Assembly: GCF_019968605.1 (NCBI RefSeq)
Contig: NZ_CP082966.1
Location: 186,001 to 250,000, forward strand
Reading direction: 5' to 3'
DNA length: 64,000 nt
From: Polaribacter litorisediminis
GTDB lineage: Bacteria > Bacteroidota > Bacteroidia > Flavobacteriales > Flavobacteriaceae
The translations under genes were made by a program, and so were the position numbers. Positions within the stretch are counted from its first letter, which is position 1; each line of letters begins with the position of its first letter. The notes under the pieces are model-generated. The model did no database searches and had not been told where the DNA came from. It was given only the letters and a program-made list of their open reading frames with translations. Positions 16,464 to 30,632 of the stretch are shown here, piece after piece.

Positions 16464-16874
16464 CTAAGTACATGACAAAAATTGATAGATTTCTACATTT
16501 GTTTTATTTTCAGAGTTTAAAAGCGTTTTTGCTAAGAAGTTAAGCCCATATTTGAATATAGATTTGGCTTTTCTTCCGGGTTTTTTAATTGGTATAGGCT
16601 TTTTTAGATGCAGATATATTCCAATTTTATAGCACCATACAAAAGCAATCATTACCAGTAAAATTAAGTTTTCAATTCTTTGAATATCTTTTAAATGGGT
16701 GTTTTCTATATCAAATCCACTAGATTTCATCGCTTTAAAACACATTTCAATTTGCCCTCTTTGCGCATAATTTTGTTGTGCTTTTTCAGGTTGATTAAAA
16801 GAGATAAGAATTAAAAAATCAAGTTTTCCATTTTTATTTTTTAGTTTACATCCATATAATTTGTTTATTGTCAA
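16464..16874 (-). pseudogene. IS4-family transposase, C-terminal remnant
   Basis: A 136-codon open frame corresponding to the C-terminal part of an IS4-type DDE transposase. The family YREK signature is intact: Y-x2-R-x3-E-x6-K is seen in YAQRGQIEMCFKAMK, followed by the typical SSGFDIENTHLKDIQRIE segment and KPGRKAKSIFKYGL. The N-terminal two-thirds, with the first two catalytic aspartates, is absent, so it cannot be an active transposase. The stop codon abuts the left terminal repeat. The ATG at 16874 is probably internal to the parental gene or a fusion created by the deletion. Confidence 0.85.
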
Positions 16875-17146: not shown

Positions 17147-19999
17147 TTATTCCTTAAGAAATCTTAAATTTCTTAAATCTCCAGATTCATGAAGTATGGA
17201 CATGATGTAGACTCCCTTTATTTTTGGTAACTGAAAATTAGTAAGCTCAAGAAAAGGATTTTGCTCACTAATTAATAGTTGTTGATGATACAATGTTTTC
17301 CCTAAGAGATCCTTGATGAGCAAATTACTTTTTCCGGTCATTTTAAGAGGAAACTTTAGGTATAATTTCTGATTTACAGGATTTGGATACAGTACAATGT
17401 TTTCAGAATTAAATACTACAATATTGTCAGGGTTAGAAAGAGGTGCGTCGCAATTGATAACCTCAACTGTTTTTCTATTTGCTGATTTTGATACTATTGG
17501 ACGGCCGAAAATATAAATTTCGTTTACTGATACAAATTCGTTTTGATCCATAGAAAAACGTAAATACCTTGTTGAAATAGCTGTTTTAGTTTCATTCTGA
17601 TGATTAAAATTAGTATATGGGTCTATAAATAAAGTGGTCCAATTTGATGCAGAGCCATAGGCTAGAGTAAATTTTTTTGTTTGCTGCATATCATGTAAAT
17701 TTATTTTAGAGATATAATATTCTTTTCCTAAATCAAAAATTATATCATGGGATTCATTATTGACTGCATCGGCTAGTTTCCAAGAATTACTGGATGCGTT
17801 CATTTCTGATGTATACTCTAAATGCTCCTCATTAAATAAAAGTCTGGCGGAACGTACACTACCTTCTTTAACAGAATTTTTTATCATATTTGATGTGATG
17901 ATGATCTGCTTATCTTCGCTACTTTTTTTTTTACTTACTTTCAGGAAATCAATTAAAGGATATCCATAAATTATGATTTCATTTACGGCTGCATAAGGAT
18001 TTTCTAACATCGATAAACGTAAATATTGTGTAGAAATATCTGTATTATGTGTATTCCAAGACTGAAAATTATCTAAAGAATCCACGAACAAAGGAGACCA
18101 ATAATTGGGATTTCCATATTCTACGGTAAAATCTTGTTTATCATTCATATCATGAAGATTGAATTCAGAAATGTAATATTCTTTTCCTAAATCTATAATA
18201 GCATAATATGGAGCATTTAAGGCATCATTGGCTGGTTTCCAAGAATTACTTACAGCAGATTCTTCTGCCACTAAATTCAAATCTTGTTCATCAAACAAAA
18301 ATAAAGGTGAATTTAAGCTTCCTCCTTGCACCAGATCGGTTACCATAGTGGGTAAAATAACAATTTGTTTAGATTCTTTAACTACTGGATATCCATAAAT
18401 AATGATTTCATTAACAAACGCAAAAACATTTTGATACATGGAAAATCGTAGGAATCTTGTGGTTACATCAGTTTCATTTTTACTCCAAGTATTATAAGTG
18501 TCACAAGGGTCGGTAAATAAAGTTTCCCAATTTGTTTCATTGCCATATTCTACTGTAAAATCAGCACTATTATCCATATCATGTAAATTTATTTCTGATA
18601 TGTAATAGTGTTTTCCTAAATCTATCACTACATGATACGAAGAATTATTCATTGCGTTAGCAGGCTTCCATGAAACACTTTGGGCATGTTCATCGATTGT
18701 TATATTTAAATTTTGTTCATCAAATAAAAATAAAGGCGAATTTATACTGCCTCCTTCAACTAAATCGGTTACCATTTCAGAGGTAATTTTAATTTGTTGA
18801 GGTGCTGTTTCAAAATATTCGGGTCCGCTCGGTGCTCCTATTTGCTGATATTCAGTCGGATTATTATTTGTAACGGAATAATCATTCTTAGAAGGATCTT
18901 CAAATTCAATTTCTGGAATACGTGCTAAACAATTATTTGCTACCGTAAAGTTATTTGCATTGCCAGATTCATTTAGGAAGAAGGTAATATCTGTATCATA
19001 GTAATTATTTTCAGCAGTTATATAATTAATTTCATTATAATTTTTTATAATTTCGGTACCATTAATTTCTCTAAAATAATTTTGGTTAATATTCACAGGA
19101 GCTAGTTGATCACTTACAGACCGGTTATCAACAAAAACTCCTAAATTGGAAGCGATATAGTTATTGGTAAATGTGCAATCTCCTTTTCCTAAAGCAATAA
19201 TTCCATTAGAAGGTGCGCCTATGAGAATATTATTATAGGCATTTACAACACTGTTGTTCCCTATTTGAAGTATATTGGTTTGGTGGGGTATATTTTCTAA
19301 TCCTGCATTTAAAAGTGTGTTATTATAAATTTCTATATCTTCTACCATATTGGCTATTTGTATAGATTCTCTTAAAGTGTTTCGCACAATATTATTGTAA
19401 ATTCTTACCTGCTTAAACTCCATTCCGGGTGTTTGAGTTTCACCTAAATACATTCCTTCAGATACATTTTCAATAAAACAATCATGAATTATTAAATTTT
19501 TAAAAACCGGATATGGAAAAGGAGGATTTCCTTCATAATCTTTTTTAGCCACGATACCGAAAAAACCATCGTGATCTATTTTTATGAATTCGGCTTCACA
19601 ATCAGAACTCAAATCTGCAAAAGCCAAACCAGATTCAACAGCCGAGAGTTTAAATCCGTATTTATAATTTGGATGCCCAGCTCCGCTAATTTTAATGTAT
19701 CTACAATTTTCAAAGGTTATGGCACCCCAGATACCAGTATCGCCACTATCAATTTTTACTTGCCCGCCTTTATTAATAATCACAAGCGGGGTATTGGCAT
19801 CTCCATTTACAAATTGAAATCTTAACGGATTGGTTCTAGAAGAAGAAATAAATATAGTGTCTCCGCCAATAGTTGCGCTACCTAAAGTTTCTTCATTTAC
19901 ATGATAAGGAAAAGTATGATCAATAATAAAGTTTTGGTTTTGACAAAACGCTAGAGAACTAATACACAAAGTTATAAGGAATAAACAAAACTTTTTCAT
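17147..19999 (-). CDS. Large secreted beta-helix / discoidin-like protein, type IX secretion cargo
   Basis: A 950-residue exported protein. The ATG at 19999 is chosen over one 13 codons upstream because it starts a proper signal peptide (MKKFCLFLITLCISSLAFCQ). Residues about 40-390 have the N/I-rich periodicity of a right-handed parallel beta-helix (repeated IYNN, IANN, VANN turns). Three tandem modules of about 140-150 residues follow, near 405-535, 548-680 and 703-835, each with (V)TDLV.GGS.(N)SPLFLFDE, SWKPA, IDLGK.YYIS..NLHDM and RFLRFSM-like blocks; they look like F5/8-type C (discoidin) carbohydrate-binding folds. A C-terminal sorting domain (VLYPNPVNQKLYLKFP ... LKDLLGKTLY-like) marks type IX secretion. 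Possibly a polysaccharide-binding or -degrading surface protein; no catalytic motif is identified. Confidence 0.82.
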   Translation of the reverse strand: MKKFCLFLITLCISSLAFCQNQNFIIDHTFPYHVNEETLGSATIGGDTIFISSSRTNPLRFQFVNGDANTPLVIINKGGQVKIDSGDTGIWGAITFENCRYIKISGAGHPNYKYGFKLSAVESGLAFADLSSDCEAEFIKIDHDGFFGIVAKKDYEGNPPFPYPVFKNLIIHDCFIENVSEGMYLGETQTPGMEFKQVRIYNNIVRNTLRESIQIANMVEDIEIYNNTLLNAGLENIPHQTNILQIGNNSVVNAYNNILIGAPSNGIIALGKGDCTFTNNYIASNLGVFVDNRSVSDQLAPVNINQNYFREINGTEIIKNYNEINYITAENNYYDTDITFFLNESGNANNFTVANNCLARIPEIEFEDPSKNDYSVTNNNPTEYQQIGAPSGPEYFETAPQQIKITSEMVTDLVEGGSINSPLFLFDEQNLNITIDEHAQSVSWKPANAMNNSSYHVVIDLGKHYYISEINLHDMDNSADFTVEYGNETNWETLFTDPCDTYNTWSKNETDVTTRFLRFSMYQNVFAFVNEIIIYGYPVVKESKQIVILPTMVTDLVQGGSLNSPLFLFDEQDLNLVAEESAVSNSWKPANDALNAPYYAIIDLGKEYYISEFNLHDMNDKQDFTVEYGNPNYWSPLFVDSLDNFQSWNTHNTDISTQYLRLSMLENPYAAVNEIIIYGYPLIDFLKVSKKKSSEDKQIIITSNMIKNSVKEGSVRSARLLFNEEHLEYTSEMNASSNSWKLADAVNNESHDIIFDLGKEYYISKINLHDMQQTKKFTLAYGSASNWTTLFIDPYTNFNHQNETKTAISTRYLRFSMDQNEFVSVNEIYIFGRPIVSKSANRKTVEVINCDAPLSNPDNIVVFNSENIVLYPNPVNQKLYLKFPLKMTGKSNLLIKDLLGKTLYHQQLLISEQNPFLELTNFQLPKIKGVYIMSILHESGDLRNLRFLKE

Positions 20000-20035
20000 G
20001 GGAGAAATGATCATTGTAAATAAACAATTAAGATA

Positions 20036-20043
20036 CAAATTTA
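20036..20043 (-). promoter_or_regulatory. Possible -7 promoter element of the beta-helix gene
   Basis: Minus strand reads TAAATTTG (TAnnTTTG), 36 bp before the chosen ATG at 19999. It overlaps the end of the upstream cupin gene. Confidence 0.35.
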
Positions 20044-20388: not shown

Positions 20389-20404
20389 TATAAAATGATG
20401 CTTT

Positions 20405-20412
20405 CAAAATTA
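20405..20412 (-). promoter_or_regulatory. Promoter -7 element of the cupin gene
   Basis: Minus strand reads TAATTTTG (TAnnTTTG), ending 17 bp before the ATG at 20388. Confidence 0.4.
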
Positions 20413-20571
20413 TGTAAAATCGCTAAAAAAAAAATGAATGCCATTTTTGTTAAAAGTAGGCATTTTAGATAAATTCTATCAGATGTTTTAGAAATCCTTT
20501 TCACACCAATTTATACGTACAATTTCGTGTACATAAATTGAATTATTTTTTGATTCATTGAAATTAAAAAA

Positions 20572-20692
20572 GAATTAGCGTAGCCTTCATTGCGATCATT
20601 TTTTTTAAAAAGTAAGCGAAAAAGGAAACGATTTATTACGGCATTAGATGTCTATAACGGTATCAGTCCCAATTTTATAGCATTGGGGCTTG
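20572..20692. repeat. ~120-bp non-coding element with terminal hairpin
   Basis: The better-preserved partner of 16950-17060. It contains the shared AGCGTAGCCTTC opening, TTTATTACGG at 20632-20641 and ends in a hairpin with TCCCAAT paired to ATTGGGG. It occupies the 465-bp gap between the divergent cupin and kinase genes, which otherwise shows no gene. Confidence 0.45.
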
Positions 20693-20853
20693 TCATGTAA
20701 ATACAAATTTTGTAAAAAAGAAATCAATTATAAAAACTTAGTTAACAATTAACTTTACCAATATTTTTAATGGATGGGGTACAACTTAATGGCAATCTAT
20801 AATTCCTAAAAATAGTGCGGAGTATATTGAGATATTTATGGTATTTTCGACAA

Positions 20854-22782
20854 ATGAAACAGGTGAAAATTGTGCCCCTCTTTTTTCTGGTAATATTCTT
20901 TTTATCTTGTAAAGAAGAAGTTCTGAAAAATGATGGGCTTCCGAATCAAAAAACTCAAGAAGAAAAATTTGTTCCTGTCGATTTTTCTCAATTTAAAAAT
21001 CTTAACAATAAAGAACAGCTTCAACTATCAAAAAAAATACTTAACAAAAGAGCGATTAATAGTTCAGACAAATACAGGCTTTTTAATCTCAATAGATTTT
21101 TATATAGCAAGCTTAACGAACCCGATAGTGCTATTGGTGCTTGTAAAAAGATGTTAAATTTAGAGATTACCAAAGAGAGTGATGCCTATTTAGGTCATGT
21201 TAATTTTAGATTAGGCTTATATTTTAATCAAATAAATTTAAGAGATAGTGCTTTTTATTATTACAATATCGCAAAAAAACATTTTTTTAAGACAAAAGAC
21301 AGTCTGCAATTGGGAGCCTCTTTTCTAAACATTGCATACATAGAATCTAATTTTGGAGATTATACAAAAAGTGATTCTTCGGCAGTAGCTTCTATAAAAT
21401 TTATCAACGGAAAAAAAGCAACCACCACGGCATCTGCTTATAATATTTTAGCTATAAATTCAAAACAGAGATCAATCTATCAGGATGCCGTAAACTATTA
21501 TAAAAAAGGGATTGCAATAACAACAAGGAAAAGCTCTAAGATTATTTATAAAAATAATTTGGCAAACGTTTATAAAGAATTTAAAGACTATTCTAAAGCT
21601 ATTTTAATTCTTGAAAACTTGCTAAAGGATTCTATCGTTAATTTAAAAACAAAGGCAAGAGTTATAGATAATTTGGCATATATAAAATGGTTAAATAATG
21701 CTAATGAGCCGGTTGAAAAAGATTTATTATTTGCCAAATCCATTCGAATTCAAGAAAAAGACACATACGGACTTGCGGCAAGTTACACTCATTTATCAGA
21801 TTTTTTTAAAGAAAAGGATACTGAAAAGGCTTTATTGTATGCAATGAAGATGTACGATGCTACAAAAGAATTAGTGAACCCAAAAGGGCAAATTGAAGCG
21901 ATAGAAAAAATTACAGCTCTCGTAACACCCTTAAAAGCAATTAAATATTATGAAGAGAGTATTCGTTTAAGTGATAGTTTACAGAAAGTAGAAACCAATA
22001 GACAATATAAGTTTGCTAAAATTAAATATGATTACGAAGAAGAAGAGAAAAAAAAGCTAAAATTTAAAACACTTGCAACAGAAAACAAACTAATTGCAGA
22101 GCAAGAAAATAATCAAAAGAAAAATATTTTAATCATTACTGTTATTTTGGCTTCTAGCTTACTGTTTTTATTGTATCGAAGAAAACAGCAACACAAAAAA
22201 CAAGTTTTACAGGAAAAATATAATACGGAAACCAGGATTGCTAAAAAATTACATGACGAATTAGGGAATGATATCTTTAAAATTCTTACTAAAGTTCAGG
22301 CTTCAACGTATAAACCAACGGATATTATAAACGATTTAGATAAAATATATCTCCAAACTCGAGCTATTTCTCATGAAAATGATACTATTGAAACAGGTGG
22401 AGATTTTGAAAATCATTTTAGAGAACTCGTAGCTAGTTATAATTCAGATACTTGTAAAATTATTCTAAAAGATTTGGCTTCTATAGAGTTAAATAAATTA
22501 GATAAAGAAAAGCAAATTGTAATTTATAGGGTGTTTAATGAGTTTTTTGTGAATATGAAAAAGCATAGCGAGGCTACTTTAGTTGTTGTTGCTTGCAAAA
22601 GAATAAAAAATGAGTATCAAATAATTTATTCGGATAATGGAGTTGGATTTAAAGAAAATAAAATTATTTATAAAAATGGACTCAAGAATACGAAAATCCG
22701 TATAAAGAATATGAATGGAACTCTTAATTTTGAAAATAATCCTATAAGAGGGATAAAAATTATTTTTAATTTTAAAAATTAA
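20854..22782 (+). CDS. TPR-repeat sensor histidine kinase (lipoprotein-type N-terminus)
   Basis: About 642 residues from the ATG at 20854; an in-frame ATG 13 codons upstream is less likely, because this start gives an immediate lipoprotein signal (VIFFLSCKEE, lipid-modified Cys at 19). Residues about 50-390 form tetratricopeptide-like helical repeats. A membrane helix near 425-445 (NILIITVILASSLLFLLYR) is followed by a coiled stretch and a HisKA_3-like phospho-acceptor motif (RIAKKLHDELGND, His near 468). The ATPase domain has a recognisable N box (NEFFVNMKKHSEA), the G1 box SDNGVGF and a short G2 region NGLKNTKIRIKNMNG. This is the Bacteroidota NarX-like class that pairs with LuxR/NarL-type regulators, and a regulator array follows directly. 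The last 100 bp contain a dyad and a TAnnTTTG element and are duplicated downstream as relics. Confidence 0.88.
   Translation: MKQVKIVPLFFLVIFFLSCKEEVLKNDGLPNQKTQEEKFVPVDFSQFKNLNNKEQLQLSKKILNKRAINSSDKYRLFNLNRFLYSKLNEPDSAIGACKKMLNLEITKESDAYLGHVNFRLGLYFNQINLRDSAFYYYNIAKKHFFKTKDSLQLGASFLNIAYIESNFGDYTKSDSSAVASIKFINGKKATTTASAYNILAINSKQRSIYQDAVNYYKKGIAITTRKSSKIIYKNNLANVYKEFKDYSKAILILENLLKDSIVNLKTKARVIDNLAYIKWLNNANEPVEKDLLFAKSIRIQEKDTYGLAASYTHLSDFFKEKDTEKALLYAMKMYDATKELVNPKGQIEAIEKITALVTPLKAIKYYEESIRLSDSLQKVETNRQYKFAKIKYDYEEEEKKKLKFKTLATENKLIAEQENNQKKNILIITVILASSLLFLLYRRKQQHKKQVLQEKYNTETRIAKKLHDELGNDIFKILTKVQASTYKPTDIINDLDKIYLQTRAISHENDTIETGGDFENHFRELVASYNSDTCKIILKDLASIELNKLDKEKQIVIYRVFNEFFVNMKKHSEATLVVVACKRIKNEYQIIYSDNGVGFKENKIIYKNGLKNTKIRIKNMNGTLNFENNPIRGIKIIFNFKN
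22688..22732 (+). promoter_or_regulatory. Dyad plus -7 element embedded in the kinase 3' end
   Basis: ATACGAAAATCCGTAT (22688-22703) matches 13 of 16 bases of the downstream TTACGG...CCGTAA dyad. A TAATTTTG element begins at 22725, 22 bp after the dyad, exactly the spacing of the three downstream copies. It could drive the first regulator position. The bases also encode kinase residues, so chance or protein constraint is possible. Confidence 0.4.
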
Positions 22783-22805
22783 GAAGGTTTTAAAAAGGGC
22801 TAGTT

Positions 22806-23379
22806 AGAAGATTTTGATTTTTTTAACAGTGCTATAAGTCTCAATTTAAAGAGATTTCTTTAAACGAAGAACCTTATCATTTAATATTTTCTGATTTATC
22901 ATTTAAAAATGATGGAAGCCTGAGAAGATTAAAATTCAGAAAAGATTTAATCCAAAAAATTCAGGTGATTTTCCTGATTTAAAAATAATTATTTTTTCAA
23001 TCGAAGATAAATCGTATCGAATGCAGCACCTATATAGCAATCTGAAAATTCAGAGATATGTTTAGAAAAACAGCAACGGATTGCAAAAATTCAAAAAAGC
23101 AATTCATTCAATTTTTACTTCGGATGAGTTTTCTACTTCACCAGATTTAAACATGACCATTCATCTCAGAAAGTCTTTATAAATTGCAGATTGTAAGTTT
23201 TTTAAAATTTATTCAAAGATTTTCTTCAAAAAAAATAGTAAAAAATTAAAGCAAAACGGGGATTAAATTTTCAAGTATAAGTGTTGTAGAAAAAAGAGTA
23301 AGATTTTTTGAGAGTACATTTTTAGGTCAAAAATTCTACACATTTTGTGTCTATTGCTAAAAATTTAGGAGTTATTTAA
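22806..23379 (+). pseudogene. Decayed response-regulator gene, first copy of the tandem array
   Basis: Nucleotide similarity to the two intact regulators downstream is clear throughout (for example ACCTTATCATTTAAT, GATTTATCATTT, TTTTTACTTCGGATGAGTTTT), but the gene is dead. It has no start codon, has lost about 65 bp after the first residues, is frameshifted several times, and has TAG where the intact copies read Trp in GYVWKN. Its middle resembles the 24513 copy (sequence for SIEDKS) and its 3' part the 23614 copy (NMTIH), which suggests mosaic ancestry or gene conversion. It sits directly behind the kinase, where a cognate regulator would be expected. Confidence 0.85.
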
Positions 23380-23405
23380 GGGATTTTTTAATTTTTTTTG
23401 CCAGA

Positions 23406-23450
23406 TTACGGAAATCCGTAAAGTTTTTCCATTTTTTGGGTTTAGTTTTG
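23406..23450 (+). promoter_or_regulatory. Dyad operator and promoter, copy A
   Basis: TTACGGAAATCCGTAA at 23406-23421 (7-bp perfect arms) is followed by TAGTTTTG at 23443-23450, a TAnnTTTG -7 element. The dyad centre is about 40 bp upstream of the predicted transcription start, the usual place for a class II activator. The start codon of the next regulator is about 160 bp further on. Confidence 0.65.
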
Positions 23451-23504
23451 GCAAAAAAGAAATAATAGGAGGATAAAAAAACGAATATACAATATAATTT
23501 TAGA

Positions 23505-23605
23505 AATGTACTCAAAAAGTGGAAGCCCTCATAAAGTTAACGAAAGGAGTTCTTAATTTCGAAAATATACTAGGTAGAAGGTTAAAAGTTATTTTCATTT
23601 TTAAA
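23505..23605 (+). pseudogene. Relic of the kinase 3' end, copy A
   Basis: The segment matches the last about 100 bp of the kinase gene (compare GGAGTTCTTAATTTCGAAAAT with GGAACTCTTAATTTTGAAAAT, and the shared TTTTCATTTTTAAAAA-like end). It has no open frame. It shows that the duplicated unit included the kinase tail and explains the long leader before the regulator. Confidence 0.7.
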
Positions 23606-23613
23606 AAGAAAAG

Positions 23614-24282
23614 ATGTTTGAAAAAGTTTTAGTTGTAGAAGATTTTGATTTAATGAATAGTGGAATAGAAGCTGCTTTATATGAACTTTCCATAAGAGTA
23701 GTAGATTCTATTGCTTATTGTGATGAAGCTTTTTTAAAAATTAAAGAAGCGTCTTTAAAAGGAGAACCTTATCATTTAATAATTTCTGATTTATCATTTC
23801 AAAATGGTGGACCTCCGCAAAAATTAAAATGCGGAGAAGATTTCATTAAAAAAATACGCTATGATTTTCCTGATTTAAAAATAATTATTTTCTCAATAGA
23901 AGACGCATTGCATCGAATTCAGTATTTATATAACAATCTAAAAATTCAGGGATATGTTTGGAAAAATAGAAACGGATTGCAAGAACTCAAAAAAGCAGTG
24001 CATTCAATTTTTACTTCGGATGAGTTTTATGTTTCACCAGATTTAAACATGACCATTCATCCTAGAAAAGCTTTAGAAATTACAGATTTTGATGTTTTTT
24101 TAATTTTAAATTTATCCAAAGGTTTTCCTCAAGAAGAAATTAGTAAAAAATTAAAGCAAAACGGAATTAAACCTTCAAGTATAAGTGTTGTAGAAAAGAG
24201 GTTAAAATTTTTAAAAGGACATTTTAATGCCAAAAATCCTACACATTTAGTATCTATTGCCAAAGATTTAGGAGTTATTTAA
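23614..24282 (+). CDS. LuxR/NarL-type response regulator, array copy 1
   Basis: A 222-residue regulator with a receiver domain (acidic pair E9/D10, phospho-acceptor D59 in IISDLSF, switch S94, lysine K117 in GYVWKNRNG) and a C-terminal helix-turn-helix (about 155-215, SKGFPQEEISKKLKQNGIKPSSISVVEKRL). All phosphorylation residues are present, so it should be functional. The HTH is LuxR-like but divergent, with KLKQNGIKPSS in place of the usual LNLSPKTV. It is preceded by dyad/promoter copy A and a kinase-tail relic and followed by copy B. The upstream TPR kinase is the probable partner. About 75% identical to copy 2 by eye. Confidence 0.88.
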   Translation: MFEKVLVVEDFDLMNSGIEAALYELSIRVVDSIAYCDEAFLKIKEASLKGEPYHLIISDLSFQNGGPPQKLKCGEDFIKKIRYDFPDLKIIIFSIEDALHRIQYLYNNLKIQGYVWKNRNGLQELKKAVHSIFTSDEFYVSPDLNMTIHPRKALEITDFDVFLILNLSKGFPQEEISKKLKQNGIKPSSISVVEKRLKFLKGHFNAKNPTHLVSIAKDLGVI

Positions 24283-24307
24283 AGAATTTTTGATTTTTTT
24301 TTTCAAA

Positions 24308-24352
24308 TTACGGAAACCCGTAAAATTTTTCCATTTTTTGGGTTTAGTTTTG
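24308..24352 (+). promoter_or_regulatory. Dyad operator and promoter, copy B
   Basis: TTACGGAAACCCGTAA at 24308-24323 is followed by TAGTTTTG at 24345-24352, with the same 22-bp interval as the other copies. It lies 26 bp after regulator copy 1 and should drive copy 2. Confidence 0.65.
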
Positions 24353-24404
24353 ACATGAAAGAAATAAAAAAGGAAAGTAGCTAAAATACAATATCCTTTT
24401 AGAA

Positions 24405-24507
24405 AGAGACTCAAAAATACGAAAACCCTTTTAAAATCAACAAAAGGAGGTCTTAATTTCGAAAATAAACTTAGCTAAAGATTAAAAGTTATTTCATTTT
24501 TAAAAAG
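24405..24507 (+). pseudogene. Relic of the kinase 3' end, copy B
   Basis: Second decayed copy of the kinase tail (GACTCAAAAATACGAAAA followed by GGAGGTCTTAATTTCGAAAAT). Its version of the embedded promoter reads TAATTTCG and the dyad is lost. Confidence 0.7.
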
Positions 24508-24512
24508 CAAAG

Positions 24513-25181
24513 ATGTTTGAAAAAGTTTTAGTTGTAGAAGATTTTGATTTTATTAATAGCGGTATACAAGCGGCTTTAGATGAGATTTCCATGAAAGAAG
24601 TAGACTCTATTACGTATTGTGATGAAGCGTTCTATAAAATTAAAAAGGCTTCTTTAAACGGAGAGCCTTATCATTTAATGATTACTGATTTATCATTTCA
24701 AAATGATGGAACGCCACAAAAATTAAAATCTGGAGAAGAATTAATAGAAAAAGTACGCGAAGAATTTCCTGATTTAAAAATAATTGTTTTTTCAATCGAA
24801 GATAAATCGCATCGAATTCAGCATTTGCATAGCAATCTAAAAATTCAGGGATATGTTTGGAAAAATAGAAACGGACTGCAAGAACTCAAAAAAGCAATTC
24901 ATTCAATTTTTACTTCGGATGAGTTTTATATTTCACCAGATTTAAACACTGCCATTCACCCTAGAAAAACTGTAGAAATTACAGAGTTTGATATTTTTAT
25001 AATTGTAGGTTTATCTAAAGGTTTACTTCAAGAAGAAATTAGTAAAAAATTAAAGAAAAATGGAATTAAACCTTCCAGTAGAAGTGTTGTAGAAAAAAGA
25101 TTAAGATTTCTGAAAGAACATTTTAATGCTAAAAACCCTGCGCATTTAGTTGCGATTGCTAAGGATTTTGGACTTATTTAA
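24513..25181 (+). CDS. LuxR/NarL-type response regulator, array copy 2
   Basis: A 222-residue paralogue of array copy 1 with the same length and layout: receiver (E9/D10, D59 in MITDLSF, K117) and a C-terminal HTH. Differences cluster on the receiver surface (for example GTPQKLKSGEELIEKVREE against GPPQKLKCGEDFIKKIRYD) and in the recognition-helix area (SSRSVVEKRLRF against SSISVVEKRLKF), so the two could differ in partner or DNA preference. Both start with identical MFEKVLVVEDFD. It is followed at 26 bp by dyad/promoter copy C. Confidence 0.88.
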   Translation: MFEKVLVVEDFDFINSGIQAALDEISMKEVDSITYCDEAFYKIKKASLNGEPYHLMITDLSFQNDGTPQKLKSGEELIEKVREEFPDLKIIVFSIEDKSHRIQHLHSNLKIQGYVWKNRNGLQELKKAIHSIFTSDEFYISPDLNTAIHPRKTVEITEFDIFIIVGLSKGLLQEEISKKLKKNGIKPSSRSVVEKRLRFLKEHFNAKNPAHLVAIAKDFGLI

Positions 25182-25206
25182 AATTTTTTTGGTTTTTTTT
25201 ACCAAA

Positions 25207-25251
25207 TTACGGAAACCCGTAAAGTTTTTCCATTTTTTGGATTTAGTTTTG
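25207..25251 (+). promoter_or_regulatory. Dyad operator and promoter, copy C (orphan)
   Basis: TTACGGAAACCCGTAA at 25207-25222 is followed by TAGTTTTG at 25244-25251, again at 22 bp. No gene follows on the plus strand; the next signal is a strong terminator at 25424-25450. Confidence 0.6.
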
Positions 25252-25255
25252 CTGA

Positions 25256-25455
25256 AAGATAAATAGTAGTAAAGAAAATGAAATTTTTTAATCAATTACT
25301 AAAGAAATATTAGCCGAGATTTCTTTAGAAAAATTTAATAAAGATATAAATACTTATGATGTTCAAAGGTATTGAGCTCATAAAGTTTTTTAATAATATT
25401 ATGGAAAAGAAGGATGTTGTTTTAAAACCTTACAGTGTTTGTAAGGTTTTAATTT
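25256..25455 (+). ncRNA. Candidate short RNA from the orphan promoter
   Basis: A transcript from promoter copy C to the terminator would be about 200 nt. It has no credible open frame; the longest is an uninitiated 26-codon stretch ending DINTYDVQRY at about 25374. Whether this is a regulatory RNA, the scar of a lost target gene or a silent promoter cannot be decided here. Confidence 0.25.
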
Positions 25456-25457
25456 TT
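25424..25457 (+). terminator. Intrinsic terminator
   Basis: An 11-bp perfect stem AAACCTTACA-type (25424-25434 with 25440-25450) has a 5-base loop and a TTTTAATTTTTATT tail. It closes the regulator array. Because the left side begins with AAAA it may also work leftward. Confidence 0.8.
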
Positions 25458-25626
25458 ATTGAATTGCTTTTCTGATAACAAAAATAATGGATACCAAGTA
25501 TTTCAAATAGTATGAAATACATTTTTAAACGTTTATAAATTTAACTTCATTTATTATAATTGTCAGTTTTTTTCTTGTTGGGGGGCAAGCTTCAAAAAAC
25601 TACATTATTTTATTTGAAGTTATTTT
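25458..25626. other. Gap between regulator array and dnaE2-like gene
   Basis: No gene is seen. The stretch holds a second stem, CTTCAAA (25590-25596) with TTTGAAG (25613-25619), and a G-run flanked by CTTG/CAAG at 25574-25589. Either may help end leftward transcription of the polymerase cassette. Confidence 0.4.
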
Positions 25627-28584
25627 TTATTGCCTAGGATCAATAGCAATACTCATCTTTTTAGATTTGATGATATTCATACTGCAAAACCCAAAACGAT
25701 TGGTAATTTTACCGTAACAAGCATAAATTCCTATTCCGTTTATTGGATATAAATGAACAACATCTGTAAAATGAACTGCATCAAAATAAAAACCATCTTG
25801 GTCTATAAAAGTGCTTAAACGCATGAGTTTTCCTTGTGAAGTTTTGTTAAATCTAGTAGTGACTAATTTACCATACAACAATATATTTTTATTAGAATAG
25901 GCTTCCATTTCTTTTGCTTTTGTATGGGGAAGAAATTCTTCGGTAACCAAAGAAAAATAATCGTGAATAGTAAACCCTAACAGTGCTATTTCATCATAAA
26001 CATTTTCTAACCAATGGGTATGTAATGCTGGAATTTCAAATTTTTGATGTTGCAAGCGAAACAGCTTTTCTTGTGTTGTTTGATGTTTTATTTTTGTGGC
26101 ATTCAATTTAAAAGTAGCTTGCCAAAGTAGCGCTGTTTTTGGTTTTAGTGTAAAACGGAACGCATCAATACGAATTAAAATGGTGAGTTGCTCTATCGAA
26201 ATGGTTACTCGATCGATAAAATCATCCAAAGAAAAAAAAGCACCTTGTATTTGACGTTCTGTTAAAATTCGTTGAATCACCAAATCTTCTAAATTTTTTA
26301 GGTAACCAAAACCCAAATAAATAGTTTTTCCTTCTACGGTATTTGCATGATCGCTTTTGTTGATGCAAGGCAAGGCTATTTTTGCACCACACATTTTAGC
26401 TTCATGAATATAATGTTCAGCCGAATAAAAGCCACCACCATTATTTAAAACTGCGGTCATAAATTCAATAGGGTAGTAGCATTTTAAAAATAAACTCTGG
26501 TAACTTTCTACTGCGTAAGAGGCAGAATGTCCTTTTGCAAACGCGTAGCCTGCAAAACTTTTAATTTGATTCCACACTTCAAAAATTAATTCGTCTTGGT
26601 ATTCTTTTTTTCTACAATTTGTAATAAATTTATGTTCAACGGCTTTAAATTCTTCTACAGAGCGGTACTTTCCGCTCATTCCTCTTCGTAAAACATCGGC
26701 TTCTCCCAAGGTTAAATCGGCAAACTGATTGGCAACTTTCATCACATCTTCTTGATAGACCATTACGCCGTAAGTTTCGGGCATAATTTGTAATAAAATA
26801 GGATGTGCTTCTTTTCTTTTTTCAGGAAAACGATGCCGTTTTATAAACTCCTCTTTCATTCCAGAACCCGACACGCCTGGCCTAATAATAGAACTTGCAG
26901 CAACCAAACCCAAATAATCTTGCGTTTGTAATTTTTGCATTAAGCCACGCATGGCAGGCGACTCTACATAATATGCACCAATAGCACCACCTGTTTTTAG
27001 CAAGTTGTTAATGTTTTTATCATTCTTAAAACGCTCCACATTGGTAATATCAATTTCAGGAGCTGTCGGATTATTTTCTTTGATAATTGCTAACGCATCT
27101 TTAATTTTTGCCAGACCCCGTTGTCCTAAAATATCAAATTTAAAAACACCTACATCATCAGCAATATTCATATCAAACTGAACGGTAGCAAAGCCTTTTG
27201 GAGGTAAATGAGTAGCGGAATAATAATGAATGGGTTTGTCTAAAATTAAAATACCGGCAGAATGAACACTCACATAATTCGGAAACCCTTCAATGAGTTT
27301 TCCGTATTTTAGAACCAGTTTAGAGATGTCGTCTAATTGTGTATCGGCAACTTTTTTGCTTAGTTTATCAATTTCTTCTTTTGGCAATCCAAATACTTTA
27401 CCTAATTCGCGTACAACGGCTCTGTATTTAAAAGTATTATAGGTTGCTAATAAGGCAACATTGTCAAAACGATTAAAAATATATTGGGTTACTGTATTTC
27501 TATCTTTCCAAGAAAAATCAATATCAAAATCGGGTGGAGAAGCTCTAAACGGATTGATAAATCGTTCAAAATACAAGTCTAATTCAATAGGATCTACATC
27601 GGTAATGCCTATAATATAGGCTACAATACTATTGGCGCCACTTCCTCTACCTACATGAAAAAAGTTGTTTTCTTTCGCATAGCGGATGATATCATAATTG
27701 ATTAAAAAGAAGGAGACAAATTTCAAATCGATAATTACTTTTAGTTCTTTTTGAAGTCGTGCCTTTACTTTTTCTGTAGGATTTTGGTAGCGTTTATGCA
27801 TGTTATCATCACACAATTGTAGCAACATTTTACAATCTTCCTCAAAACTATTGCAATACAAATTCAGATTCTGATTTTTACGTTCATTGTTAAATCCGAA
27901 GTAGATTGTACAGTTTTGTAAGAGCTTTTTTGTGTTGGCTATGATATGGGGGAATTCTTTAAACGATTCTTCTAGTTTTTCTGTAGCATGCATGCTATCA
28001 GTGGCTAAGCATTCTTCGGTAGTGGGTAGTTTGCTTAATAATGTGTTGTTATCAATGGCTCGTAAAAGTCTGTGTGCATTAAAATCTTTCTTATTTCGGA
28101 TGGTAACTTGTTGCTGAATGACCAATTTGTCTTTGTATTTTTTTAGATAAGAAAAACGGAGTTTATTAATTTCTGCAATCGAAATTCCGATACATTCGTT
28201 TTCAGCAAAAGAAGTTAAATTTAATTCCAGTACTTTTTCAAAAGGATAAATAATATAGGTGTTTTCTAACGTTTTGGGTTGATCCGGAATTTTAGTTTTA
28301 GCGGTTAAAAAAGAAGACAAATACCGATTGATGTTTTCAAAACCGTCATTATTTTTTGCGATAGCCACAAATTGCTGTGTGTTACCATTTCTAAAATCAA
28401 TGCCGACAATCGGTTTTATATTAAATTTTTTAGCTTGCTGCACAAAATTCATACAAGCAGAGGTATTGTTGATGTCTGTAAGTGCAATACCATCGACATT
28501 ATTTTCTACAGCAAGTTGCAATAAGGCAACTTCAGAGAAGGTACCATAACGCAATGAATAATAGCTATGACAATTTAAATACAT
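25627..28584 (-). CDS. dnaE2: Second DNA polymerase III alpha subunit (DnaE2-like, probably error-prone)
   Basis: A 985-residue C-family polymerase, about 460 residues shorter than the housekeeping DnaE at 11438-15778 and without the exonuclease domain. The N-terminal PHP domain has lost the first metal histidine (LNCHSYYSLRYG instead of HxH), so PHP-linked proofreading is unlikely. The polymerase core keeps GRGSGANSIVAY and the catalytic PDFDIDF near 350. A beta-clamp motif QEKLF occurs near 838 and a C-terminal OB-fold near 885-960. It starts 7 bp after the Y-family polymerase on the same strand and so forms an operon with it, divergent from a LexA-like repressor. That is the layout of damage-induced mutasomes, here without a recognisable ImuA. 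Confidence 0.88.
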   Translation of the reverse strand: MYLNCHSYYSLRYGTFSEVALLQLAVENNVDGIALTDINNTSACMNFVQQAKKFNIKPIVGIDFRNGNTQQFVAIAKNNDGFENINRYLSSFLTAKTKIPDQPKTLENTYIIYPFEKVLELNLTSFAENECIGISIAEINKLRFSYLKKYKDKLVIQQQVTIRNKKDFNAHRLLRAIDNNTLLSKLPTTEECLATDSMHATEKLEESFKEFPHIIANTKKLLQNCTIYFGFNNERKNQNLNLYCNSFEEDCKMLLQLCDDNMHKRYQNPTEKVKARLQKELKVIIDLKFVSFFLINYDIIRYAKENNFFHVGRGSGANSIVAYIIGITDVDPIELDLYFERFINPFRASPPDFDIDFSWKDRNTVTQYIFNRFDNVALLATYNTFKYRAVVRELGKVFGLPKEEIDKLSKKVADTQLDDISKLVLKYGKLIEGFPNYVSVHSAGILILDKPIHYYSATHLPPKGFATVQFDMNIADDVGVFKFDILGQRGLAKIKDALAIIKENNPTAPEIDITNVERFKNDKNINNLLKTGGAIGAYYVESPAMRGLMQKLQTQDYLGLVAASSIIRPGVSGSGMKEEFIKRHRFPEKRKEAHPILLQIMPETYGVMVYQEDVMKVANQFADLTLGEADVLRRGMSGKYRSVEEFKAVEHKFITNCRKKEYQDELIFEVWNQIKSFAGYAFAKGHSASYAVESYQSLFLKCYYPIEFMTAVLNNGGGFYSAEHYIHEAKMCGAKIALPCINKSDHANTVEGKTIYLGFGYLKNLEDLVIQRILTERQIQGAFFSLDDFIDRVTISIEQLTILIRIDAFRFTLKPKTALLWQATFKLNATKIKHQTTQEKLFRLQHQKFEIPALHTHWLENVYDEIALLGFTIHDYFSLVTEEFLPHTKAKEMEAYSNKNILLYGKLVTTRFNKTSQGKLMRLSTFIDQDGFYFDAVHFTDVVHLYPINGIGIYACYGKITNRFGFCSMNIIKSKKMSIAIDPRQ

Positions 28585-28591
28585 ACATGCG

Positions 28592-29806
28592 TTATTGTTT
28601 TCTATGCGCTAAAACCAGTGGAGGTTCGCCGTTAAACGGATTGCTAAATCTGCCAATCGATTTTGCGCCCATGGCGGATGCTCTCATAATACTCAATTCG
28701 CCATACTTATTCCGAACGGTGTCCATGGCGTTGTATAGCGATAATAGTTGTTCGGTATCATCAAAAAGATTTATTTGATAATTTCCGCTAACAAGGTCTG
28801 ATACTTTTACACCGACCAATCGGATTAATAATCTTCGTTGATATAATTTTGTAAAGAGTTCTAAAACCTTAGGGATAATAATATGGTCTGCACTTGTATA
28901 CGGAATTTTAAGTTGTTTGCTGTAGGTATTGAAATCTGAATAGCGAATTTTTACACTGATGGTTCCTGTTAATTTATCGCCTTTTCTTAATTGATAAGCC
29001 AAGTTTTCTGCCATGGCAAACAAGGTTGCTTTTAGTTTTACCATATCAATCGTGTCTTTATTATAGGTTCTTTCTGTAGATAAAGATTTACGTTCATGAA
29101 AAGCAATAATAGGCGGATTGTCAATTCCGTTTGCCCGTTTCCAAATTGTTTTTCCATTGGCACCTAAAACGCTGATCATCATTTCTAAAGGCATTTCTTG
29201 AATTACTTTTACTTTATCTACGCCAAGATTTCTTAAAATTTGATAGGTTTTATTTCCTACAGACGGAATTTTACGAATCGATAAGGGTGCTAAAAAATCT
29301 TTCTCAAAACCTACATTGATCAATAATTGATTGTTAGGTTTTGCTTCGCCAGTGGCAACTTTAGAAACTATTTTATTTTGAGACATTCCAAAAGAGATGG
29401 GCAATCCGCTTTCTTTAATAATTCGCTGACGCAATTCTGAAGCATATTTATAACTTCCAAAAAAAGCATCCATACCAGAAAGGTCGGCATAGAATTCATC
29501 AATACTAGCTTTTTCGAAAATGGGTACTTTTTCTTTGATGATTTCCGTAACAAGATTAGAGTATTTAGAATAGGTACTGGTATTGCCTCTAATGATAATA
29601 GCTTCTGGACACAATTTTTTGGCAATTTTCATAGACATCCCAGAGTGCACTCCAAAACGTCTCGTTTCGTAGCTACAAGCGGCAACAACCCCTCGGTCTC
29701 CTGTTCCGCCAACTAACAAGGGCTTTTTTTGCAACCTGCTATCAATCAAACGCTCACAAGAGACAAAAAAAGTATCCAAATCGAGATGTAAAATATTTTT
29801 TTTCAC
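28592..29806 (-). CDS. dinB: Y-family DNA polymerase (DinB / Pol IV type)
   Basis: A 404-residue translesion polymerase. The catalytic residues are intact: DLDTFF at 7-12 and the SIDEFY motif near 102, so unlike ImuB it should polymerise. The palm and fingers are followed by a helix-hairpin-helix region (RKIPSVGNKTYQILRNLG near 178), the little-finger domain and a beta-clamp-binding motif QINLF near 343. The conserved YSIDEF is here ASIDEFY. It is the first gene of a two-gene operon with the DnaE2-like polymerase and starts 52 bp from the divergent LexA-like repressor gene; inverted repeats in that gap suggest DNA-damage control. Confidence 0.92.
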   Translation of the reverse strand: MKKNILHLDLDTFFVSCERLIDSRLQKKPLLVGGTGDRGVVAACSYETRRFGVHSGMSMKIAKKLCPEAIIIRGNTSTYSKYSNLVTEIIKEKVPIFEKASIDEFYADLSGMDAFFGSYKYASELRQRIIKESGLPISFGMSQNKIVSKVATGEAKPNNQLLINVGFEKDFLAPLSIRKIPSVGNKTYQILRNLGVDKVKVIQEMPLEMMISVLGANGKTIWKRANGIDNPPIIAFHERKSLSTERTYNKDTIDMVKLKATLFAMAENLAYQLRKGDKLTGTISVKIRYSDFNTYSKQLKIPYTSADHIIIPKVLELFTKLYQRRLLIRLVGVKVSDLVSGNYQINLFDDTEQLLSLYNAMDTVRNKYGELSIMRASAMGAKSIGRFSNPFNGEPPLVLAHRKQ

Positions 29807-29818
29807 AGTGTAAAATTA

Positions 29819-29857
29819 GCTACAAATTCATACATTTGTTGCTTATTATTGTAGCAA
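29819..29857. promoter_or_regulatory. Overlapping operators and divergent promoters of the mutagenesis cassette
   Basis: Three inverted repeats overlap: GCTACAA (29819-29825) with TTGTAGC (29849-29855), ACAAAT (29822-29827) with ATTTGT (29834-29839), and TTGCT (29839-29843) with AGCAA (29853-29857). A perfect rightward -7 element TACATTTG (29831-29838) and a near-match leftward one (TGAATTTG, 29830-29823) sit inside them. A repressor bound here would block both directions, giving autoregulation and coordinate induction. Confidence 0.55.
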
Positions 29858-29858
29858 T

Positions 29859-30632
29859 ATGAAAAATTTATCAAAAAACATCAAACATTTAAGATCTCTT
29901 AAAAAATTAACACAAGAAGCTTTAGCAGAAGAATTATTAGTAACAAGATCTAGAATAAGTTCTTACGAAGAAAATAGATCTTCACCAACTATTGAGTTTT
30001 TAGTGGCGTTTTCAGCGTATTTTAAAATCCCTATTGACATTATTATTAAAAATGATTTAACAAAGGCTAAAGATGTTTCTTTTATTGAAGTTGGTAATAA
30101 AAGAGTCTTGTTTCCGATTACCGTTGATAGTGAGAATGAGAATTTAATTGAAGTGATTTCGGCAAAAGCATCCGCAGGGTATTTATTGGGTTATGACGAT
30201 CCTGAATATATAGAACAATTAGAAAAAATAAAGCTGCCTTTTTTACCTACCGGAAAACATAGGGCTTTCCCGATAAAAGGAGATTCTATGTTGCCCATGA
30301 AAGATGGCTCTTATGTGGTGGCAGAATTTGTGGAGGACATTAAAGAGGCAAAAAGTGGATGCTCTTATATTGTAGTTACTAAAGATGACGGAATGACGTA
30401 CAAAAGAATCTACAATCAAGTAGAAGAAAAACAATCTTTTTTGTTAAAACCAGACAATACAAGTTATCAATCTTATGAGGTTCCTGTTACTGAAATCTTA
30501 GAGTTATGGAAATTTACATGTAGTATTAACACACAAGAATATGAAGAGCACGAATTAAAATTAAGTAGCATCATAGAAATGTTTCGTGGTTTAGGAGTAG
30601 AGTTGGAGGCTTTGAAAAAATCACTAATTTAA
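29859..30632 (+). CDS. LexA-like repressor: XRE helix-turn-helix plus S24 self-cleaving peptidase
   Basis: A 257-residue regulator. Residues 1-62 are an XRE/Cro-type HTH (LTQEALAEELLVTRSRISSYEENR). Residues about 85-225 form an S24/LexA peptidase domain: probable cleavage site Ala106-Gly107 (KASAGYL), catalytic Ser143 in GDSMLP and catalytic Lys182 in MTYKRIY, with spacing like LexA and CI repressors. It thus resembles lambda CI in architecture rather than classical LexA, whose HTH is winged. Divergence from the dinB-dnaE2 operon, with operators in the shared gap, points to a damage-responsive switch that it also controls itself. A C-terminal tail of about 30 residues (EMFRGLGVELEALKKSL) may aid dimerisation. 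Confidence 0.9.
   Translation: MKNLSKNIKHLRSLKKLTQEALAEELLVTRSRISSYEENRSSPTIEFLVAFSAYFKIPIDIIIKNDLTKAKDVSFIEVGNKRVLFPITVDSENENLIEVISAKASAGYLLGYDDPEYIEQLEKIKLPFLPTGKHRAFPIKGDSMLPMKDGSYVVAEFVEDIKEAKSGCSYIVVTKDDGMTYKRIYNQVEEKQSFLLKPDNTSYQSYEVPVTEILELWKFTCSINTQEYEEHELKLSSIIEMFRGLGVELEALKKSLI

Follow-up and report, generated by a model that had tools for sequence, protein, structure and literature searches.

Tandem response-regulator genes of Polaribacter litorisediminis lie among copies of an operator–promoter module that probably serves a defence-rich regulon in Bacteroidota

A two-component system of Bacteroidota probably activates a defence-rich regulon directly, and in Polaribacter litorisediminis a duplication appears to have put copies of its response regulator (RR) gene behind their own operator. 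The operator belongs to a module, i.e., the dyad TTACGGN4CCGTAA followed by 21 bp and a TAnnTTTG box, which is likely a conserved operator–promoter, widespread in Flavobacteriia and Sphingobacteriia. In related bacteria the same switch, with its spacing nearly always unchanged, also precedes numerous virus-defence genes that are unrelated to one another, which suggests a shared immune control circuit. The array described here, located in a window of 64,000 nucleotides (the whole stretch of DNA analysed), is best interpreted as a duplicate of this widespread regulon operator; autoregulation would be a consequence of the duplication, and may have been kept.

An earlier sequence-only reading of the window had proposed one decayed and two intact 222-residue RRs behind a TPR histidine kinase, which was borne out by the open frames and alignments, and the same dyad and TAGTTTTG block was indeed seen 3' of every RR copy (Table 1). 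The period, given as about 900 bp, measures 902 and 899 bp; the dyad–box spacer, given as 22 bp, is actually 21 bp in all three modules. Two features had been overlooked. The kinase 3' end has matches within the repeat at 22685, 23514 and 24414, and the ~900-bp repeat is a tandem duplication that includes a remnant of this 3' end. Furthermore, dyad 3 faces the relic of a gene for a small target protein (tblastn with the 43-aa protein of locus L248, 2.7e-5), which ends in a strong terminator. The sole match of an Rfam search over 20400–25700, to isrJ, fell on the terminator palindrome below the gathering score and was rejected as chance.

Table 1. Features of the array (window coordinates)
Feature	Position	Strand	Basis
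TPR sensor histidine kinase, 642 aa	20854..22782	+	open frame
RR copy 1, decayed	22788..23380 (limits approximate)	+	alignment, stop codons
Dyad 1 (candidate operator)	23406..23421	+	exact motif match
TAGTTTTG box, promoter 1, facing RR copy 2	23443..23450	+	sequence match
Kinase 3'-end remnant in repeat 2	23514..23611	+	repeat analysis, family D6
RR copy 2, intact, 222 aa	23614..24282	+	open frame, Pfam, alignments
Dyad 2 (candidate operator)	24308..24323	+	exact motif match
TAGTTTTG box, promoter 2, facing RR copy 3	24345..24352	+	sequence match
Kinase 3'-end remnant in repeat 3	24414..24511	+	repeat analysis, family D6
RR copy 3, intact, 222 aa	24513..25181	+	open frame, Pfam, alignments
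Dyad 3 (candidate operator)	25207..25222	+	exact motif match
TAGTTTTG box, promoter 3	25244..25251	+	sequence match
Small-protein target relic, pieces in two frames	25328..25433	+	tblastn
Intrinsic terminator, 14 pairs, then T run	25422..25452	+	terminator scan, fold z -4.54

The repeat copies have diverged unevenly. RR copy 1 aligns to copy 2 with 78 gap positions and carries four stops in one matched stretch, whereas copies 2 and 3 share 86% of their DNA and 172/222 residues, with dN 0.11 and dS 0.34 (NG86) or 0.11 and 0.62 (YN00), i.e., a dN/dS of about 0.17–0.33, below 1. The dyad, spacer and box are identical at 43/45 positions in every pair against 0.81–0.86 of the coding DNA (P = 0.008 against 0.82), in line with the earlier claim of a better conserved promoter block. 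RR copies 2 and 3 sit behind modules 1 and 2 and, since copy 1 is decayed, both intact RRs are now placed behind their own operator. Among 53 RR-positive congeners, intact RRs in tandem were found in this genome only; the RR–module–RR order is also present in Weeksellaceae (L019/L251, L101, L175), hence the array is not the only case of an RR located behind its own operator.

The kinase and the NarL/FixJ-type RR probably constitute a two-component system. The kinase features a lipobox-like start, TPRs, one membrane segment (topology assigned by eye), an LHDELG motif as candidate H-box and a putative HATPase domain; its Pfam matches to TPR and HATPase_c (3.4e-4) are under the cut-offs, and its matches to UhpB (2.8e-13) and LiaS (2.6e-10) far under the curated cut-offs of those models. 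The receiver domains of the intact RRs match Response_reg at 1e-5 (below the cut-off) and 3.5e-7 (above it). Both retain the putative phospho-acceptor Asp59 and Lys117, the former present in at least 90% of a 51-row RR alignment and the latter invariant in it. The profile built from this alignment matches RcsB over positions 4–188 (1e-11), DesR over 87–210, and also VraR and NarL; at E<=1, Pfam revealed neither GerE in the C-terminal domain nor Response_reg_2. NarL/FixJ regulators (NarL, LuxR, RcsB, VraR) bind inverted repeats near -42. The present RRs resemble them in the profile matches and in the dyad at activator distance, and differ in the missing GerE match and in the coupling of the dyad to a TAnnTTTG box.

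The three dyads of the window are all exact, and no further site appears when up to two mismatches are allowed; at this tolerance, shuffled windows harbor 1.14 sites on average, 13/100 of them reaching three. The 4.34-Mb genome contains five exact dyads, and the scan suggested by the sequence-only reading, run as the dyad, N19-24 and TAnnTTTG, recovered 5/5 of them, the reversed pattern giving 0. Promoters of Bacteroidota comprise TAnnTTTG as the -7 box and a -33 element. Module column counts display no strongly conserved TTTG at the -33 place, and the dyad adjoins this region.

The spacer is exactly 21 bp in 185/205 modules (search with N19-24) and in 56/62 matches when N8-38 is allowed, and the next start codon lies a median of 27 nt past the predicted transcription start. 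Such a fixed gap fits an activator, as the distance of the dyad had been read before. The exact module occurs in 38/53 RR-positive vs 1/93 other congeners (p 1.2e-21) and in 38/75 RR-positive vs 2/124 other genomes of the family (p 1.6e-17; nearly one genome per genus), with the cut-offs for a strong RR match (1e-45, 1e-60) chosen after the E-value gap was seen; it is absent from 15/53 RR-positive congeners and 37/75 RR-positive family genomes. Flavobacterium johnsoniae CI04 (L114) carries both the RR and the module. A same-strand RR gene is immediately upstream in 61/197 modules, and within the genus an RR lies within 10 kb of 42/57 modules, on the same strand in 42/42 and with the module downstream of it in 40/42. 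The outer dyad bases are TT/TT in 184, CT/CT in 19, AT/AT in 16 and asymmetric in 14 cases (n=233); since most module sequences were fetched by matching TTACGG...CCGTAA, this covariation rests on the neighbouring sites. Taken together, co-occurrence, adjacency and symmetric covariation indicate that the dyad is very probably the site of the present RR family. Five loci with non-Bacteroidota titles (L067, L099, L105, L180, L183) were dropped from most module counts and kept in the column counts, the 205-module spacing set and the 61/197 adjacency count; modules with spacing outside 20–22 were dropped from the target-gene sets, and those with spacing other than 21 from the covariation and terminator counts.

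The genes behind the module are diverse. Of the two distant modules in the same genome, one precedes a motor/tubulin operon resembling Zorya and the other a GHKL ATPase. The operon encodes weak matches to ZorA2 (1.3e-10, in a protein also weakly matching other models) and ZorB (1.6e-13 and 8.9e-11) along with Tubulin_2 (5e-6) and FtsA (3e-5), both below the cut-off; ZorC, ZorD and ZorE found no match among the eight proteins scanned, and the ATPase matched no PADLOC family. Elsewhere, the first operon past the module includes Cas9, Gabija, Shango, Zorya, IetAS and R-M genes as well as recurrent nuclease-rich small-protein cassettes. An individual PADLOC match at <=1e-20 was obtained for 12/58 trans operons, based on two hand-picked ten-protein tables, and five more were deduced from container counts and clustering; the matches include Cas9 (7e-73), GajA (4e-213), SngB (2e-164), SngC (4e-211), ZorB2 (4e-81), IetS (E=0), MzaC (3e-98), HsdR (2e-47) and PDC-M38A (5e-293). 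Shango operons stand behind the module three times vs about 0.003 expected from a rough base rate. Many other targets are lipoproteins or small proteins, TM2, DUF4177, DUF4236 and DUF1508 among them.

The strength of this association depends on how the neighbours are compared, pooled PADLOC scans counting families, not proteins. At 1e-5, the first downstream genes matched 196 families (149 proteins) and the upstream non-RR genes 17 (104 proteins); these sets are what remained of 174 downstream and 197 upstream proteins once near-identical sequences, RRs and anything shorter than 50 aa had been taken out. The contrast shrinks when the largest gene per side is taken at 1e-20: 82 families for 52 downstream proteins (seven of 59 removed: six known defence positives and one RR) vs 63 for 64 upstream proteins (seven of 71 removed as duplicates or genes behind another module). 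The upstream families, among 25 listed, comprise Cas1, Cas9, AbiEii, reverse transcriptases and DpdF; the surrounding islands are hence defence-rich themselves. Nor is the module inherent to Gabija or Shango, since most tested copies lack it: a full module was upstream of GajA in 0/10 cases (one had a near-module, one only 168 bp of upstream sequence), and upstream of SngB it was found at 1/5 loci, 3.3 kb away and with one mismatch, 4/5 being without it. The near-dyad excess upstream of these systems is not significant, three of the five one-mismatch dyads counted over 203.6 kb being theirs.

These data bear on several alternatives. A regulon for envelope stress, competence or lifestyle in general, with defence genes drawn in through the defence-rich variable islands hosting the modules, is conceivable but somewhat doubtful: the richness of the upstream genes, the numerous lipoprotein, TM2 and DUF targets and the likeness of the RR profile to the envelope-stress regulators RcsB and VraR would suit it, whereas the complete, unrelated defence systems that immediately follow it in the genomes (Cas9, Gabija, Shango, Zorya, IetAS, R-M), each next to a module, and the recurrence of nuclease-rich cassettes argue against it. 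A plausible, if not favoured, view is that the array is merely a decaying tandem duplication with functionless feedback. The broken copy 1 and dyad-3 target and the restriction of tandem intact RRs to this genome among the 53 RR-positive congeners point this way; the low dN/dS, the nearly invariant promoter blocks and the Weeksellaceae arrangements speak against it.

The dyads themselves invite two further readings. As intrinsic terminators of the RR genes followed by an incidental TAnnTTTG, they are very improbable: all three in the window do scan as weak terminators (six pairs and a T run), and in 23/182 modules the dyad forms part of a longer stem with a T run, mostly behind co-directional genes (22/136 vs 1/46), yet the 21-bp gap is fixed, a run of >=4 T within 8 nt follows only 11/58 cis and 32/125 trans dyads, and many dyads precede genes far from any RR. 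Termination was rejected as a general explanation and kept as a dual use for a subset. Binding of the dyad by another transcription factor, with the RR co-occurring through linkage, is also unlikely; RR binding is a prediction and half of the RR-positive family genomes carry no exact module, but the genome-level association extends to modules far from the RR, and RR–module adjacency and strand are constant.

In the favoured model of an RR-activated defence regulon, phosphorylated RR dimers would occupy TTACGGN4CCGTAA, whose centre lies near -42, and bring RNA polymerase to the TAnnTTTG promoter exactly 21 bp downstream. Often, one module copy 3' of the RR gene would drive nuclease-rich small-protein cassettes, with further modules driving anti-phage systems in trans; in the present genome, the putative trans targets are the operon of ZorA/B-like, tubulin-like and FtsA-like genes and the GHKL ATPase. 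The array may have originated by tandem duplication of a unit comprising the kinase 3' end, the RR and the module, the target of the last module being a relic, and both intact RRs might act on their own operator in positive feedback. The signal could be envelope- or phage-linked and perceived at the presumably periplasmic TPR domain. The earlier idea of a self- or cross-regulating array is supported in part: RR copies do lie behind dyads, but as the main meaning of the array it is not supported, since in relatives the module usually precedes another gene and only 4/174 modules have an RR next downstream, two of them in this array. The full scenario, in which the TPR kinase senses an envelope threat, the RR turns on any defence system that has gained the portable module (CRISPR-Cas9, Gabija, Shango, Zorya, IetAS, R-M or others yet to be described), and capture of the RR genes by the module creates a self-reinforcing switch, is tentative, at slightly below an even chance.

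Searches of the open-licence literature returned no account of the operator or of its regulon. Among the closest parallels is Gac/Rsm of Pseudomonas, a coordinated defence regulon where GacA works via small RNAs and RsmA; like the proposed system, it places one two-component system over many unlinked defence factors, including anti-phage ones. The differences are the phylum, the proposed RR site inside the defence-operon promoters and one fixed operator–promoter geometry, GacA being reported absent outside gammaproteobacteria (PMC11888443). PpoS/PpoR of Marinomonas mediterranea, a BarA/UvrY-type cascade over two CRISPR systems, likewise pairs a histidine kinase with an RR and controls CRISPR-Cas expression and phage resistance; unlike here, no shared operator is mentioned in the available part of PMC8523701. 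Response_reg_2/HEF_HK TCS-like pairs accompany R-M systems and paraMORC ATPases, a similar association with restriction-modification genes and GHKL ATPases, (PMC8011034); here, by contrast, the kinase carries TPRs, the RR is of the NarL type and putative operators lie at operons elsewhere in the genome.

If the module reading is true, a 45-bp signature would list the genes that one kinase–RR pair assigns to immunity across much of the phylum. New defence systems would become predictable by promoter instead of homology, with the tubulin/FtsA/ZorAB-like operon and the small nuclease cassettes as candidates, and the inducing signal would become testable in a tractable laboratory strain.

The module, i.e., the dyad TTACGG-N4-CCGTAA followed, after a 21-bp spacer, by a TAnnTTTG box, is real and widespread. 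In the 4.34-Mb genome of P. litorisediminis, TAnnTTTG comes after each of the five exact dyads in forward orientation. The module was found in 39 of 146 genomes of the genus (reversed-pattern control, 0) and, with gaps of 8–38 allowed, in 40 of 199 genomes representing the family at nearly one per genus (reversed control matches in 2). The gap is exactly 21 in 56 of the 62 family matches, as it is in 185 of the 205 distinct modules of the pooled set. Among named genomes, at least 119 stretches carried the module, with Bacteroidota titles on 114 of the matches listed, these being chiefly Flavobacteriia and Sphingobacteriia. The outer dyad positions co-vary (TT/TT 184, CT/CT 19, AT/AT 16, asymmetric 14), and the downstream start codon follows the predicted transcription start at a median of 27 nt in the pooled modules. 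Taken together, the dyad symmetry and the near-constant spacing suggest an activator that acts as a dimer and would contact RNA polymerase near -42.

Variants of this geometry occur in relatives. At L248 (genome G168), CTACGGAAACCCGTAG with compensating outer bases lies 21 bp ahead of a TAGTTTTG box, behind a single-copy response regulator (RR) 75% identical to that of the window; at L250, one RR precedes three serial modules, each with its own small-gene cassette. At seven loci (L243, L244, L246, L247, L249, L055, L060), a second dyad about 50–75 nt past the box sits within an extended terminator stem; here, an RR-controlled short RNA or leader between the box and the second dyad is possible.

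The regulator of the module is very probably the NarL/FixJ-type RR family encoded behind the TPR histidine kinase. With strong-match cut-offs (1e-45, 1e-60) placed at the gap observed in the E-values, the module is present in 38 of 53 RR-positive congeners vs. 1 of 93 others (Fisher 1.2e-21), and in 38 of 75 RR-positive family genomes vs. 2 of 124 others (1.6e-17); the exact module is absent from the other 37 RR-positive family genomes. The immediate upstream gene is an RR in 61 of 197 modules, always on the same strand (61/61), and 42 of 57 modules in the genus have an RR no more than 10 kb away; for the other 15, the RR is farther off or on a different contig. The RR profile resembles RcsB, DesR, VraR and NarL, with putative Asp59 and Lys117 conserved; no Pfam GerE match was obtained for the DNA-binding domain. 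Named homologues are mostly from Polaribacter, with some from Tenacibaculum. As read from its sequence, the kinase begins with a lipobox-like stretch and carries a single membrane segment beyond the TPRs, which presumably places the TPR portion in the periplasm.

Features of the array, its surroundings and related loci (plain numbers, window positions)
Feature	Position	Strand	Remark
L237 trans operon	L237:5345-16237		lipoprotein, tubulin-like, 1124-aa FtsA-like, ZorA-like, two ZorB-like
Transposase gene piece	16464-16874	-	named by eye
963-aa secreted protein	17147-20038	-	similar repeats, sorting-domain-like C terminus, by eye
TPR histidine kinase	20854-22782		first gene of array
Decayed RR (copy 1)	about 22788-23380		after kinase
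Intact RR copy 2	23614-24282		222 aa
Intact RR copy 3	24513-25181		222 aa
Mutagenesis-cassette-like genes (named by eye)	25627-30632		adjoining and convergent with array; DnaE-type polymerase (-), DNA polymerase IV-like (-), XRE/S24 LexA-like regulator (+); no exact dyad within
L238 trans target (own genome)			GHKL ATPase, then zinc-ribbon protein
Variant module behind RR	L248:8040-8900
RR with three serial modules	L250:9347-12228		genome G020

The sequence-only reading had placed the array correctly and made the spacer one base too long: behind each of the three RR copies, the dyad is followed by 21 bp and then TAGTTTTG. The repeat unit measures 902 and 899 bp, and inside it each intact RR is preceded by a leftover piece of the kinase gene's 3' end (repeat family D6); therefore, the array arose by tandem duplication of the kinase tail, RR and module. 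Copies 2 and 3 share 86% of their coding DNA and 172 of 222 residues (dN 0.11, dS 0.34), and dyad, spacer and box are identical at 43 of 45 positions in all three pairwise comparisons. Given the decay of copy 1, transcription of the two intact RRs would come either from the kinase, by read-through, or from promoters 1 and 2; these promoters would depend on the RR itself. Positive feedback on the RR would thus be a natural consequence of the layout. The order RR-module-RR recurs in Weeksellaceae (L019/L251, L101, L175), hence an RR behind its own operator arose or was maintained elsewhere too; of the 53 RR-positive congeners, this genome alone has intact RRs in this order.

What follows the last array module is a relic: two frames hold fragments (2.7e-5) of the 43-aa protein whose frame is open behind the RR of L248. 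A strong terminator comes next. The window dyads also score as weak terminators. The dyad falls within an extended terminator stem in 22 of 136 modules whose upstream gene runs in the same direction vs. 1 of 46 others (p 0.01), so in some relatives a single dyad may terminate one transcript and start the next.

Away from RR genes, the module precedes trans operons. The P. litorisediminis genome has two trans modules, one ahead of the L237 operon and one ahead of the GHKL ATPase gene of L238. The L237 operon is possibly an undescribed Zorya-like system (ZorA-like 1.3e-10; ZorB-like 1.6e-13 and 8.9e-11; tubulin-like 5e-6 and FtsA-like 3e-5, both Pfam and below cut-off); relatives of its first gene (66–68% identity) follow modules at L060 and L127. 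Elsewhere, first operons behind the module contain, e.g., Cas9, GajA, ZorB/ZorA, SngB/SngC, a SIR2-like protein, IetS, MzaC with a DNA methylase, HsdR, PDC-M38A and C5 methylases. Recurrent cassettes, counted in loci as protein clusters and named by eye with Pfam support, are HSDR_N-like (17), DUF4236-like (12), TerB-like (10), secreted endonuclease (10), DUF1508-like (8) and DUF4177-like (8). Individual PADLOC matches at 1e-20 or better, from 20 proteins chosen by eye for scanning, were obtained for 12 of the 58 trans operons that include a gene of 150 aa or more, the RR of L167 excluded (L081, L083, L086, L093, L095, L096, L102, L108, L130, L135, L179, L181), those of L108 and L130 being to generic parts of models. 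Five further operons with such matches were inferred, L088 and L112 via clustering, and two type I methylases and one further methylase via counts in pooled protein sets.

In Proteobacteria, two-component systems are known to control defence, as described for PpoS/PpoR (PMC8523701) and Pseudomonas Gac/Rsm (PMC11888443). In the open-licence literature searched, no description was found of a conserved operator-promoter common to many unrelated defence systems together with a Bacteroidota TPR kinase/RR.

The module regions are defence islands in general. At 1e-5, the 149 first downstream genes yielded 196 PADLOC families vs. 17 from 104 upstream non-RR genes, in tallies where a single protein can match dozens of families; for the largest gene per side at 1e-20, the contrast is smaller (82 families from 52 downstream proteins, known positives excluded, vs. 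63 from 64 upstream). The upstream families include, among 25 listed, Cas1, Cas9, AbiEii, reverse transcriptases and DpdF, and small cassettes occur upstream as well (DUF1508 in 8 of 104). Three Shango operons behind modules are very unlikely by chance, at a rough base rate that takes 115 modules and genomes of 3,000 genes each. None of the 10 GajA genes has a full module upstream (168 bp of upstream sequence examined for L277); at L276, a dyad with one mismatch lies 251 bp upstream, and its box, at spacing 21, deviates by one base. A module accompanies one of five SngB loci, with one mismatch and 3.3 kb upstream. Thus, the module appears to be an occasional acquisition of defence systems, not a constant part of them.
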